From positions 2,074,001 to 2,138,000 of the forward strand of contig NC_022792.1 in NCBI RefSeq assembly GCF_000504085.1: a stretch of DNA of 64,000 bases. The letters run 5' to 3'. Origin of the DNA: Pseudothermotoga elfii DSM 9442 = NBRC 107921. GTDB lineage: Bacteria > Thermotogota > Thermotogae > Thermotogales > DSM-5069. Below the pieces are notes generated by a model. It was not told the origin of the DNA. It made no database searches and saw nothing but the letters and a program-made list of their open reading frames with translations. The translations under genes were made by a program, and so were the position numbers. Shown in pieces: positions 12,670-17,141 of this stretch (position 1 is the first letter of the stretch; every line of letters begins with the position of its first letter).

Positions 12670-12989
12670 GATGTTTTTTCAATTTCTATTTTGTCGATTT
12701 TGACAAGACTAAACCATTGCCTGTGACCACGCTCACGTCGGTAATTCTTTCTTGGCCTGTATTTCACAACAACAACTTTTCGTGCCCTTTCATGCGACAG
12801 AACCGTTCCCTTAACTGTGCATCCCTCCACATAAGGCTGCCCTATTTTCACAGTTCCATCGGTTGAAAGGTGCAAAATTCTCTCAAAAACTACCTGCTCT
12901 CCCTGTTTAACTGACAGCTTTTCAACAGCAATGGTGTCTCCTTCAGAAACTTTGTACTGCTTTCCACCAGTCTCAATAATAGCGTACAC
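12666..12989 (-). CDS. rplU: 50S ribosomal protein L21
   Basis: A 107-residue L21: MYAIIETGGKQYKVSEGD at the N terminus, and the C-terminal VVVKYRPRKNYRRERGHRQWFSLVKID that binds 23S rRNA. The GTG start lies five bases after AAGGAGGTG. It is the first gene of the ribosomal run. The preceding 100 bases can fold into a nested stem structure whose last arm ends just before the ribosome site, suggesting control of this gene by its leader. Confidence 0.97.
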   Translation of the reverse strand: MYAIIETGGKQYKVSEGDTIAVEKLSVKQGEQVVFERILHLSTDGTVKIGQPYVEGCTVKGTVLSHERARKVVVVKYRPRKNYRRERGHRQWFSLVKIDKIEIEKTS

Positions 12990-13006
12990 AGATTCACCTC
13001 CTTAGT

Positions 13007-13093
13007 AAACAGGCACCAAAAAACGTAGCTCCGGAGTCCCTTTGGAGCATTTAAAGACGTTTCTCGAGTGCTTGTGTAAATACTTGCCTGTTT
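13007..13093 (-). promoter_or_regulatory. Structured rplU leader (L21-leader-like element)
   Basis: Three nested complementary pairs are seen. An outer 9-bp pair joins 13085-13093 with 13007-13015 (AAACAGGCA / TGCCTGTTT). A 6-bp pair joins 13057-13062 with 13021-13026 (AAACGT / ACGTTT). An inner 5-bp pair joins 13044-13048 with 13028-13032 (GCTCC / GGAGC). The outer 3' arm ends six bases before the rplU Shine-Dalgarno. L21 leaders controlling rplU are known in other bacteria; whether this belongs to that class is inference. Confidence 0.5.
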
Positions 13094-13102
13094 ATTGTAT
13101 CA
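13094..13102 (-). promoter_or_regulatory. Candidate extended -10 promoter for rplU operon
   Basis: TGATACAAT on the minus strand is an extended -10 motif, but no good -35 lies 16-18 bases upstream. If used, transcription would begin within the outer leader arm, leaving that stem incomplete. A second minus-strand -10, TATAAT at 13171-13176, with a weak TTTATA at 13195-13200 (18-base spacer), would include the whole leader. I cannot choose between them from sequence. Confidence 0.35.
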
Positions 13103-13233
13103 TCAATCATGTTACGACTTTGAAAATTTAGATTTACACTCTTCTCTCTATGTGTGTGTACAAAGCATATATTATAAACTCACAATTGATAAAATATAAA
13201 ATCCTACTTTCAAATTTTTTTGGAGGTGATGAG

Positions 13234-13752
13234 ATGTACTTGGCAATAACACTCATAATTGCTGGGTTTTGTTTAGTTTTCTTTGGGGCAAAATTCTTCT
13301 TTGGTATATTATTTGCCGCGTTTGGAATATACATACTTGTATCATTACTATCGGTCTACAAAAAAGCTCAAAAACGTGCGGAGCAGAACAAAAAAAATAT
13401 TGAAGAGCGCTTTCGGGGGAAACTCGATCAGGAAGATATTGAATGGCTCAAAGATATGATAACTCCTCCCATAGGTAGAAAATTTCTCATAATGGTCAAC
13501 GAAGAGAATTCAACGAATGTCAAAATATCGATCCCTTTATCAATAGTAATAGTTTTAAAGCCTTTTTTGAAAGCCTTATCCCCTATGCTGCGAAAGTCCA
13601 TCAAAGACAAGATTTCTATTGAAATTGAAGAAAAATATTATACCCTCATTGAAGATATGATAATTACTTCATTAGATGAATTGATGAGCTTTTCGGGTGA
13701 TTTTATTAAAGTTGAGAGTAAAGGAACTACTGTAAGGGTTGGCATTGTGTGA
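13234..13752 (+). CDS. Membrane-anchored protein of DUF2089/SHOCT-like module
   Basis: A 172-residue protein of unknown function. Residues 1-40 hold two hydrophobic segments (a hairpin or two membrane helices), then a charged helical linker (KKAQKRAEQNKKNIEERF), then a C-terminal domain ending GDFIKVESKGTTVRVGIV. This last domain resembles the C-terminal domain of the third gene of the same operon (GDIINVTGSDGTTVRIFVD), both preceded by an IP(L/V)S motif. ATG at 13234 follows GGAGGTGATGAG; upstream in-frame codons lack such a site. The gene starts 10 bases before the next gene (13763). Its context suggests a membrane partner of a small regulatory system. Confidence 0.7.
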   Translation: MYLAITLIIAGFCLVFFGAKFFFGILFAAFGIYILVSLLSVYKKAQKRAEQNKKNIEERFRGKLDQEDIEWLKDMITPPIGRKFLIMVNEENSTNVKISIPLSIVIVLKPFLKALSPMLRKSIKDKISIEIEEKYYTLIEDMIITSLDELMSFSGDFIKVESKGTTVRVGIV

Positions 13753-13762
13753 AGGTGAAAAA

Positions 13763-14134
13763 ATGATCGAATTCCAATCTAAATGTCCAGTTTGCGGCGG
13801 CAGGGTAATCATAACTTCATATAAATGTGTGAGTTGCAACAGCAAAGTCGAAGGTTCCTTTCAACCAAATGAATTTTCAAGATTGTCCTCCGAGGATTTG
13901 GAGTTTCTGAGATTGTACTTGAAAAACAGAGGAAATCTGACAAAAGTAGCTGAGAAATTGAAAATATCTTATCCGACAGCCCATTCGTATTTTAGCAGAC
14001 TTCTGAAAAATCTCGGTTATTCTGTTCAGGAAGAATCTCGATATTCTTCAATTCTCGAAAAATTGGAAAAAGGAGAGATCGATTTTTCGACAGCGATCTC
14101 TTTGATAAAAAACAGCGGGGAGGAAAAAATATGA
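13763..14134 (+). CDS. DUF2089 family zinc-ribbon/HTH protein
   Basis: A 123-residue protein matching DUF2089. An N-terminal zinc ribbon with two CxxC pairs (CPVCGG and CVSCNS, residues 7-28) is followed by a helix-turn-helix that resembles sigma region 4 or LuxR-type helices (NLTKVAEKLKISYPTAHSYFSRLLKNLGY). A C-terminal segment (LEKLEKGEIDFSTAISLIKN) looks like the short SHOCT-like helical motif. The family is presumed to bind DNA; its targets are unknown. The ATG at 13763 follows GAAGGTGAAAA. The stop overlaps the start of the third gene (ATGA), so the three genes form a co-translated operon. Confidence 0.8.
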   Translation: MIEFQSKCPVCGGRVIITSYKCVSCNSKVEGSFQPNEFSRLSSEDLEFLRLYLKNRGNLTKVAEKLKISYPTAHSYFSRLLKNLGYSVQEESRYSSILEKLEKGEIDFSTAISLIKNSGEEKI

Positions 14135-14511
14135 GAGAAGAACTTATGAGGATTATGAATCTGGTAAAAGATGGTAAGCTCACTCCTGAGCAAGCTATTG
14201 AGCTTGCTGAAGGTATGGGCATCTTTTCCGAAACAAGCAATTTTCAAAAACCGAAAGAAGGGAAGAAAAAACTGCTGTATATTCAAGTAAGAAGCGCAGA
14301 TGGAGACAAGGTAGATATGAAAATACCAGTTTCTCTTGCTCAGACAATGAAACTCATGTTACCCTCTTTGAAAAAGAATGTACCAAATGTTGATCTTGAT
14401 CTGGTATCTGATCAAATAGACGAAGCGTTGAAAAACCTGTCTGATCTTGAGGGAGATATAATAAATGTTACTGGTTCTGATGGCACCACCGTACGCATCT
14501 TTGTCGATTGA
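14131..14511 (+). CDS. SHOCT-like domain protein
   Basis: A 126-residue protein with an N-terminal SHOCT-like helical motif (NLVKDGKLTPEQAIELAEGM), a linker, and a C-terminal domain that begins VDMKIPVSLAQTMK and ends GDIINVTGSDGTTVRIFVD. The C-terminal domain is similar to that of the membrane protein two genes upstream, so the two may be paralogous or bind the same partner. Proteins of this kind often sit next to DUF2089 genes; no function is established that I can cite. No membrane segment. The gene is followed by valS after a 44-base gap. Confidence 0.75.
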   Translation: MREELMRIMNLVKDGKLTPEQAIELAEGMGIFSETSNFQKPKEGKKKLLYIQVRSADGDKVDMKIPVSLAQTMKLMLPSLKKNVPNVDLDLVSDQIDEALKNLSDLEGDIINVTGSDGTTVRIFVD

Positions 14512-14555: not shown

Positions 14556-17141
14556 ATGAATCTTGGTACACGTTACAGCCCGGAGCAGATAGAAAAAAAA
14601 TGGTATGAAAGATGGGTAGAAAAAGGTTATTTCGCGCCAAAAGGCAGTGGTATACCCTTTGTAATTGTTATACCACCTCCAAACATAACGGGACGAATCC
14701 ATATGGGACACGCCCTGAATATCACTTTGCAGGACATATTAGTAAGATACAAAAGAATGCGTGGTTTTGATACATTGTGGGTGCCGGGTGAAGATCATGC
14801 CGGCATAGCTACTCAAAATGCCGTTGAAAGATATCTCGAGAGCCAGGGAAAAAGCAGAGAGCAGCTTGGTAGAGAAAAATTCATCGAAATAGTCTGGGAA
14901 TGGGCAAAAAAATATAGAAAGGAGATACGTCAGCAAATAGAGACACTCGGTGCTTCCGTAGACTGGTCTCGAGAAAGATTTACTCTGGATGATGGTTTAT
15001 CAAAAGCTGTCAGAAAAGTTTTCGTAGATCTGTACAACCGTGGCCTGATATACAGGGGAAAATATATGGTCAACTGGTGTCCAAGATGTCAAACTGTCTT
15101 GTCAGACGAAGAAGTTGAGCACATAGAAGAGTCTGCAAAACTCTATTATGTGAAATATCCATTCTCGGGAAGCAATGAATATATAGTGATTGCAACTACA
15201 AGACCGGAAACAATGCTCGGCGATGTTGCAGTCGCAGTTAACCCGGAAGATGAAAGATACAAGAATATATCTGGAAAAACTGTTGTTCTTCCTCTGATGA
15301 ACAGAGAGATACCAATCATAACTGATAGTTATGTGGACCCTGAATTTGGTACGGGTGCTGTAAAGATAACCCCAGCTCATGATCCCAATGATTTTGATAT
15401 AGCAAAAAGACATTCTCTACAATTTATAGAAATCTTTGACAACGAGGCGAAAATAAATGAAAACGGCGGAAAATATGCTGGCCTCGATAGGTATCAAGCG
15501 CGGAAAGCTGTTTTAGAAGATCTTGAGAAAGCTGGGTTTTTACTCAAAGTGGAGAATATAAACCACGCCGTTGGGCATTGTTATCGATGCGACTCTGTGA
15601 TAGAACCAAGAATTATGGACCAATGGTTTGTAAGTATGAAATCTCTCTCAAAAAGGGCTATTGAAGCTGTTGAAAACGAAGAAATTCGTTTTGTTCCTGA
15701 AAGATGGAAAAAGGTTTATCTCCACTGGATGTACAATATTCGCGACTGGTGTATAAGCAGACAACTCTGGTGGGGTCATAGAGTACCGGTGTGGTACTGC
15801 AAAAACTGCAATGAAACGATAGTATCTGAAATAGATATTGAAGAATGTCCAAAATGCGGCTCAAAGTCTATCGAGCAAGATGAAGATGTACTCGATACAT
15901 GGTTTTCATCTGCTCTCTGGCCTTTTTCAACACTGGGATGGCCTGAGAAAACAGAAGATCTTGAAAAATACTATCCAACATCTGTTCTGGTAACAGGATT
16001 CGACATAATCTTCTTCTGGGTTGCCAGAATGATTATCATGGGTTATCAGTTTATGCAAAAAAAACCCTTTACAGATGTATACATACACCAGCTTATCCGA
16101 GATAAACACGGTAGAAAAATGAGCAAATCACTTGGTAACGGGATAGATCCAATAGATATGTCTGAAAAATATGGAACGGATCCTGTCAGGTTCACACTCG
16201 CAATCTTTGCAGCCCAGGGAAGTGACATAAAACTTGATGAAAGATACTTTGATACCTACAGAAAATTTGCCAACAAGATATGGAATGCAGCAAGATTTGT
16301 CCTGATAAATTTAGACAATTATAAACCCCAACCGCTGAATGAACTCTCCCTTGCAGATAGATGGATTCTTTCAAAGCTCCAGAAAGTTATCTCGGTAGTA
16401 AGTGATGCGATTGAAAAATACGAATTCAACATCGCTGCCAGGTCGCTGTACGAATTCTTCTGGAATGAGTTTTGTGACTGGTACATAGAATCTTCGAAGC
16501 TTGTTCTCAATAGTGAAAAGAAAGCAATCACACAGAATGTTCTGGTAAAAGTTCTTGATACAAGCCTCAGACTCTTACATCCATTCATGCCATTTTTGAG
16601 TGAAGAGCTGTGGCAAAACTTGCCAGTACATGGCGAATCGATAGTTATTTCAGATTGGCCAGAGGTTGATGTGACACTAATTAACGAAGAGGCAGAAAAG
16701 AATTTTGAAAAACTGGTTCAAATAATCAGGGGAATAAGAAATGTAAAAGCAGAAATGAACATTCCTCCAAAAAGAAATACGAAAGTCTACATATATGGTG
16801 AAACACTTTGTAAAGAGGAAAGCTCTTACATAGAACATCTTTCGGGTGCTCAAATAAGTTATGTGAAAGAGAAACCAGCTTGCTGTGCCACAGCTTTTGT
16901 TTCTGAAAATCAGCATGTATACGTTGATGTGGCTGGCCTGAATCTTCAATCTGAGATCAAAAGATTGATGAAAAACATAGAAAAATTGCAAAAAGAAAGA
17001 GAATGGCAGCTTAAAAAGCTCTCTGATGATAAATTTCTTTCCAATGCACCAGAAGAAGCTATTTCAGAAGCACGTCAAAAGCTTTCTGAGATAGAAGATC
17101 GGCTCAAAATACTCAATCAAATACTGGGTGATCTGATGTGA
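14556..17141 (+). CDS. valS: Valyl-tRNA synthetase
   Basis: An 861-residue class I synthetase. The HIGH signature is HMGH in PPPNITGRIHMGHALN, and the KMSKS loop is KHGRKMSKSLGNGIDP. An editing domain includes TTRPETMLGDVAVAVNP, and a C-terminal coiled coil (LQSEIKRLMKNIEKLQKERE) is typical of ValRS. Two CxxC pairs (CPRC; CKNC and CPKC) suggest bound zinc. It charges tRNA-Val with valine and edits threonine. ATG at 14556 follows TGGAGGTGTAATTCA; an upstream in-frame start would overlap the previous gene. It is followed directly by folC, an order also found in Bacillus. Confidence 0.97.
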   Translation: MNLGTRYSPEQIEKKWYERWVEKGYFAPKGSGIPFVIVIPPPNITGRIHMGHALNITLQDILVRYKRMRGFDTLWVPGEDHAGIATQNAVERYLESQGKSREQLGREKFIEIVWEWAKKYRKEIRQQIETLGASVDWSRERFTLDDGLSKAVRKVFVDLYNRGLIYRGKYMVNWCPRCQTVLSDEEVEHIEESAKLYYVKYPFSGSNEYIVIATTRPETMLGDVAVAVNPEDERYKNISGKTVVLPLMNREIPIITDSYVDPEFGTGAVKITPAHDPNDFDIAKRHSLQFIEIFDNEAKINENGGKYAGLDRYQARKAVLEDLEKAGFLLKVENINHAVGHCYRCDSVIEPRIMDQWFVSMKSLSKRAIEAVENEEIRFVPERWKKVYLHWMYNIRDWCISRQLWWGHRVPVWYCKNCNETIVSEIDIEECPKCGSKSIEQDEDVLDTWFSSALWPFSTLGWPEKTEDLEKYYPTSVLVTGFDIIFFWVARMIIMGYQFMQKKPFTDVYIHQLIRDKHGRKMSKSLGNGIDPIDMSEKYGTDPVRFTLAIFAAQGSDIKLDERYFDTYRKFANKIWNAARFVLINLDNYKPQPLNELSLADRWILSKLQKVISVVSDAIEKYEFNIAARSLYEFFWNEFCDWYIESSKLVLNSEKKAITQNVLVKVLDTSLRLLHPFMPFLSEELWQNLPVHGESIVISDWPEVDVTLINEEAEKNFEKLVQIIRGIRNVKAEMNIPPKRNTKVYIYGETLCKEESSYIEHLSGAQISYVKEKPACCATAFVSENQHVYVDVAGLNLQSEIKRLMKNIEKLQKEREWQLKKLSDDKFLSNAPEEAISEARQKLSEIEDRLKILNQILGDLM

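Follow-up and report, generated by a model that had tools for sequence, protein, structure and literature searches.

The window, the whole 64,000-nucleotide stretch of DNA analyzed here, contains three small tandem genes on the plus strand, designated G1, G2, and G3, which are flanked by the divergent rplU and by valS. Their open reading frames and Pfam matches agreed with the first-pass annotation, which had described three adjoining genes for a membrane-anchored protein, a zinc-ribbon/HTH protein, and a SHOCT-like protein. The C-terminal domain common to G1 and G3 is called DOM below. The features of the locus are as follows.

12990-13233, no strand: divergent intergenic region between rplU and G1, with rplU (L21) on the minus strand.
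13234-13752, plus strand: G1, 172 aa, with an N-terminal hydrophobic anchor (residues 1-39), a basic linker, and a C-terminal DOM (about residues 81-172).
13474-13752, plus strand: DOM copy in G1, GRKFLIMV...IPLS...GDFIKVESKGTTVRVGIV, supported by a profile-profile match to the G3 copy and by a whole-genome match.
13763-14134, plus strand: G2, 123 aa, a DUF2089 protein with a zinc ribbon (CPVC...CVSC), an HTH, and a C-terminal SHOCT-like hairpin.
14131-14511, plus strand: G3, 126 aa, with an N-terminal SHOCT-like hairpin (residues 3-29) and a C-terminal DOM (about residues 46-126).
14266-14511, plus strand: DOM copy in G3, KKLLYIQVR...IPVS...GDIINVTGSDGTTVRIFVD, supported by a profile-profile match to the G1 copy.
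14556-17141, plus strand: valS (Pfam tRNA-synt_1), downstream of G3 on the same strand.

G2 and G3 overlap at ATGA, G1 and G2 are 10 bp apart, and 44 bp separate G3 from valS. This three-gene form of about 1.3 kb is predicted to encode one DNA-binding protein and two partners with the same domain family. A valS-sized long ORF also lies 3' of G3 in every examined relative from the family of the window (f1), so the adjacency of valS is probably synteny and not a part of the system. The same arrangement, with rplU adjoining in the window, could be read as tying the genes functionally to valS and to the ribosomal-protein operon, with the DOM proteins acting in translation or other house-keeping. 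However, DOM pairs have other neighbours in genus g20 and outside Thermotogota, and we consider such a role very improbable.

G2 belongs to the DUF2089 family, matching PF09862 (DUF2089-HTH; E 9.3e-18) and PF22747 (Zn_ribbon_DUF2089; E 8.6e-14) with 64.1 and 51.8 bits against curated scores of 33.4 and 27.6, respectively. Among 13 Thermotogota homologues of G2, 17 columns were invariant, and all four cysteines were among them. The SHOCT-like helix noted earlier in this HTH protein corresponds to a C-terminal match to SHOCT-like PF22746 (E 3.5e-5), which at 23.7 bits falls below the Pfam curated score of 27. The N-terminal 27 residues of G3 matched the same model, SHOCT-like_DUF2089-C, above its cut-off (E 4.3e-8, 32.9 bits vs 27), whereas the model ends before DOM. 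PF22746 was matched by 52 of 52 G3 homologues and was their one recurrent Pfam family; the single invariant residue in this set was the proline of the IP[LV]S motif.

The N-terminus of G1 consists of 39 hydrophobic residues followed by K/R-rich KKAQKR, in keeping with the proposed membrane anchoring of the first protein, and probably forms a hairpin. According to the positive-inside rule, basic residues beside a membrane segment mark the cytoplasmic side, which predicts a cytoplasmic C-terminus for G1. The protein had no Pfam or NCBIfam match; its N-terminus is plainly hydrophobic, and no Pfam match identified it as a partner with LiaI-LiaF-TM, PspC, or B-box.

To compare the C-terminal domains, 12 G1 and 19 G3 proteins were aligned, each family on its own, and the two profiles were then matched with hhalign. 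The domains matched at 96.9% with E 1.4e-10 and a score of 55.8; among the controls, 200 column shuffles reached at most 20.6, a reversed alignment 16.5, and the G1 N-terminus 10.6. A G3-only profile run over the whole genome (2.17 Mb) with a cut-off of E <= 0.001 gave G1 as the sole other match (E 7e-5), and the same profile also recovered G1 in several relatives. On these sequence comparisons, the DOM copies of G1 and G3 are homologous, beyond chance. The common domain had been proposed in the first-pass annotation with statistical similarity as the test set beforehand, and it stood. At the thresholds used, DOM matched nothing in Pfam, NCBIfam, or PDB, and no credible relative emerged when the G1 and G3 profiles were searched against PDB sequences. 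AlphaFold (AF2) models were poor (pTM 0.28 for G3 and 0.36 for G1); in these low-confidence models both copies were predicted to fold as strand-strand-helix(es)-strand-strand (bb-aa-bb), and PDB fold searches with them gave no resembling structure. The paired DOM was absent from the part of the text of PMC11237479 available to us. DOM is unnamed in the libraries used and is the most novel part of the operon: it points to a conserved domain missing from those libraries, with a partner rule in which one copy has a SHOCT-like hairpin and the other has none.

Within Thermotogota, DUF2089 was found in 98 of 103 genomes and G3 profile matches in 46. DUF2089 also occurs in many anaerobes, and the literature found contained no member with a demonstrated function. 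G1 was present in 18 of the 103 genomes, eleven from the family of the window and seven from one genus of another family, and was adjoined by G3 at the locus in all 18. The DUF2089 gene stood between them in 13; in the other five, all of one genus (g3), it was missing from the locus and G1 directly adjoined G3. Each of these five genomes carries one DUF2089 elsewhere, which lies in a Toastrack-type operon in all three of the five whose locus was read. Since the pair persists there, DUF2089 is not an obligatory neighbour. The expected co-occurrence therefore held throughout for G1 and G3 and in 13 genomes for all three genes, and the unit, contrary to what had been suggested, is not strictly self-contained.

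Two arrangements elsewhere in the phylum were also seen. In another Thermotogota family, a multi-TM protein of 189 aa is encoded just before the SHOCT+DOM gene (L063:2660-3229); it has an apparent first half of DOM and is possibly a third membrane-DOM lineage. Families f2 and f3 of the order have, as the partner of DUF2089, a fusion between a SHOCT-like hairpin and a glycine-rich, bactofilin-like repeat protein (L121:3925-4425, L122:5379-6455), which stands where Toastrack or DOM would be.

To survey other phyla, named loci were gathered with a DUF2089 alignment, giving the best 80 of at least 573 loci, a set biased to near relatives. In these best 80, a SHOCT+DOM gene was found in 52 operons, a Toastrack gene in 24, and both in 9, and at least 64 DUF2089 operons had a second SHOCT-bearing protein. 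Ten more SHOCT matches among the 952 remaining ORFs came from loci where the partner had been missed or the operon clipped by the automatic call. A second, SHOCT-less DOM gene lay beside SHOCT+DOM or DUF2089 in about 30 of the same best 80, mostly from Clostridia. This count includes a divergent Lachnospiraceae/Acetobacterium type, which matched the Clostridium type at 93% and the G3 and G1 profiles at 45% and 24%, and which is counted as DOM because of the intermediate Clostridium family and its fixed gene position. The gene order seen in the window, DOM, DUF2089, and SHOCT+DOM, is repeated in two loci from Clostridia (L177 and L195). The pairing thus recurs elsewhere, as the first-pass annotation had stated, both within Thermotogota and as DOM pairs with DUF2089 in Clostridia; the three-gene unit is real, conserved, and wider than was stated there.

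In phylogenetic analysis, the G1 proteins formed a single clade (support 100/100). In the larger tree, G3 of the G1-bearing genomes grouped with Clostridiaceae G3 having a second DOM gene and not with G3 of Toastrack-bearing Thermotogota; the smaller tree gave no resolution. In the DOM tree, G1 and the clostridial SHOCT-less copies grouped with a support of 65/64, the tree being too short to decide on a single duplication. We tentatively suggest, with some way to go before we would call it probable, that DOM is a widely spread hetero-pairing domain whose two copies are unlike, one carrying SHOCT and the other lacking it and sometimes anchored in the membrane. Together with DUF2089, the pair would then define a one-component class of membrane stress regulators that is separate, independent of Toastrack, and common to Thermotogota and Clostridia.

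Genes with membrane-related products adjoin DOM in other genomes. In a Dictyoglomus (Dictyoglomaceae) locus, L167, a LiaF-TM domain (PF22570, 4e-10) is fused to SHOCT+DOM directly 3' of DUF2089. Like G1, this is a membrane-anchored DOM protein directly beside DUF2089, but it is a single fusion with a recognised LiaF-TM, whereas G1 has no SHOCT and its anchor is unrelated or unrecognised. A PF04020 holin-like gene follows the DOM pair in Acetobacterium, Anaerocolumna, Kineothrix, and Mobilisporobacter (Lachnospiraceae included) and in Desulforamulus; PF04020 is the family of YvlD/LiaZ (PMC11601895). As a separate observation, an MFS transporter or a similar-sized gene comes after the DUF2089/DOM genes in L182, L187, L189, L198, and L211, which are from several Clostridia and one Bipolaricaulota contig; Pfam bears out the transporter in L182, L187, and L211.

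The tightness of the G1-G3 linkage, which outlasts the loss of DUF2089, would suit a membrane scaffold or repair unit, that is, a G1-G3 complex with a structural role at the membrane, such as has been proposed for Toastrack/PspA-type proteins, with DUF2089 setting only the expression of its own operon. The holin-like and LiaF-TM neighbours are consistent with such a unit, as is the proposal, in the part of PMC11237479 available to us, that SHOCT-like domains bring proteins to the membrane. However, DUF2089 stands beside SHOCT partners almost always and in several phyla, more than autoregulation needs, and we judge a purely structural unit rather unlikely.

The first-pass annotation had instead suggested that G1 and G3 are rivals, a tethered and a soluble antagonist binding the same DUF2089 surface via the common DOM. 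The presence of DOM in both proteins and the position of DUF2089 between their genes in 13 genomes would fit such competition, but G1 lacks the SHOCT-like hairpin common to G2 and G3, and G1 and G3 stay paired where DUF2089 has left the locus. Moreover, many DUF2089 operons have a SHOCT-Toastrack protein in place of a DOM gene, so DOM is not the general DUF2089 contact and is less likely to be the one that this competition requires. Nothing specific shows G1 and G3 competing for the HTH protein, and we regard antagonism of this kind as improbable.

Operons of DUF2089, as a ZnR-HTH-SHOCT protein, with Toastrack have been described and placed with the PSP/Lia envelope stress systems (Ravi et al., 2024, PMC11237479); in the part of that paper available to us, they are predicted to act like the lia operon, conveying membrane signals to transcription. 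The earlier statement that the mechanism is undescribed was therefore too strong. The locus in the window resembles the operons in that part of the paper in its zinc ribbon-HTH-SHOCT-like DUF2089 protein, SHOCT-bearing partner, membrane-associated partner, and small size, and it differs in having a membrane-anchored DOM paralogue instead of Toastrack, PspC, or a LiaF-TM recognised by Pfam. No Toastrack (DUF4097) was found among G1-G3 or valS; elsewhere in the genome, this module is accompanied by a classical DUF2089-Toastrack operon (L116, G000:C1:817500-827500). The latter encodes, in order, DUF2089, a 71 aa protein, Toastrack with a SHOCT-like end (DUF4097, E 4e-25; SHOCT-like end, E 2.7e-6), DUF2207, and an outer membrane efflux protein. 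At the locus itself, G1-G2-G3 and then valS, there was no gene for PspA/LiaH, LiaF, LiaRS, PspC, or a two-component system.

A further comparison is with LiaX/YvlB of liaXYZ/yvlABCD, known from the enterococcal daptomycin response and from B. subtilis. The likeness lies in the SHOCT-like N-terminus, members of the G3 family weakly resembling the start of the NCBIfam LiaX model (E below 0.01 for 18 of the 52, with 7e-5 the lowest), and in the YvlD/LiaZ-type holin adjoining clostridial DOM pairs. In contrast, G3 has no Toastrack, and the locus in the window has no two-component system or PspC gene. G3 itself, at 126 aa, was ruled out as a LiaX/YvlB protein, scoring 16.9 bits against the NF038025 cut-off of 350 and lacking the Toastrack C-terminus. 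The operon is best read, from its predicted proteins, as a Toastrack-less, cut-down variant of the known DUF2089 envelope-stress operon type, experimentally uncharacterised.

DOM is common to G1 and G3 and the SHOCT-like hairpin to G2 and G3, whereas G1 and G2 have no part in common, so that G3 looks like a link rather than a rival of G1. We infer that G1-G2-G3 may be a compact operon for membrane-to-DNA regulation, a DUF2089 variant without Toastrack and with a G1-G3-G2 chain, a reading that we hold to be nearly as probable as not. Speaking for it are the DOM homology, the constant G1-G3 pairing, the recurrence of paired DOM genes and of SHOCT-bearing partners with DUF2089 in other genomes, the LiaF-TM fusion and YvlD/LiaZ-type neighbours, and the published prediction for DUF2089/Toastrack operons; the five loci lacking DUF2089, the absence of Toastrack, PspC, LiaF-TM, and two-component genes at this locus, and the poor AlphaFold models speak against it. 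In this chain, G1 would be an inner-membrane protein whose DOM faces the cytoplasm, and G3 would pair with it as a DOM-DOM heteromer. The SHOCT-like hairpin of G3, of the same family as the C-terminal one of G2, would connect the G1-G3 complex to G2. Membrane perturbation, the putative signal, would alter the complex such that G2 is freed, held, or activated, the direction of control being left to any of these, and G2 would regulate its own operon and envelope genes as presumed targets. One canonical SHOCT domain (PF09851) showed no self-association in a laboratory test (PMC3581485), and when SHOCT-SHOCT co-variation was examined by a partial Mantel (distance-matrix) test, all domain pairs came out positive, so the test singled out none and discriminates nothing. 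With these two results, the chain keeps the status of an inference. The operon would be a very small system for studying the kinase-free passage of membrane state to transcription.

Directly 5' of the G1 ribosome site, an AT-rich block (ATTATAA...TTGATAAAATATAAA) was kept in an alignment of six relatives and is a candidate promoter/operator; consensus promoter and terminator scans gave nothing above chance. On the other side of the intergenic region, the rplU (L21) 5' leader (12985-13090, minus strand) contains a long hairpin that matched no Rfam family. This hairpin was kept in six relatives with two-sided changes at three pairs, and it is possibly a ribosomal-protein leader.
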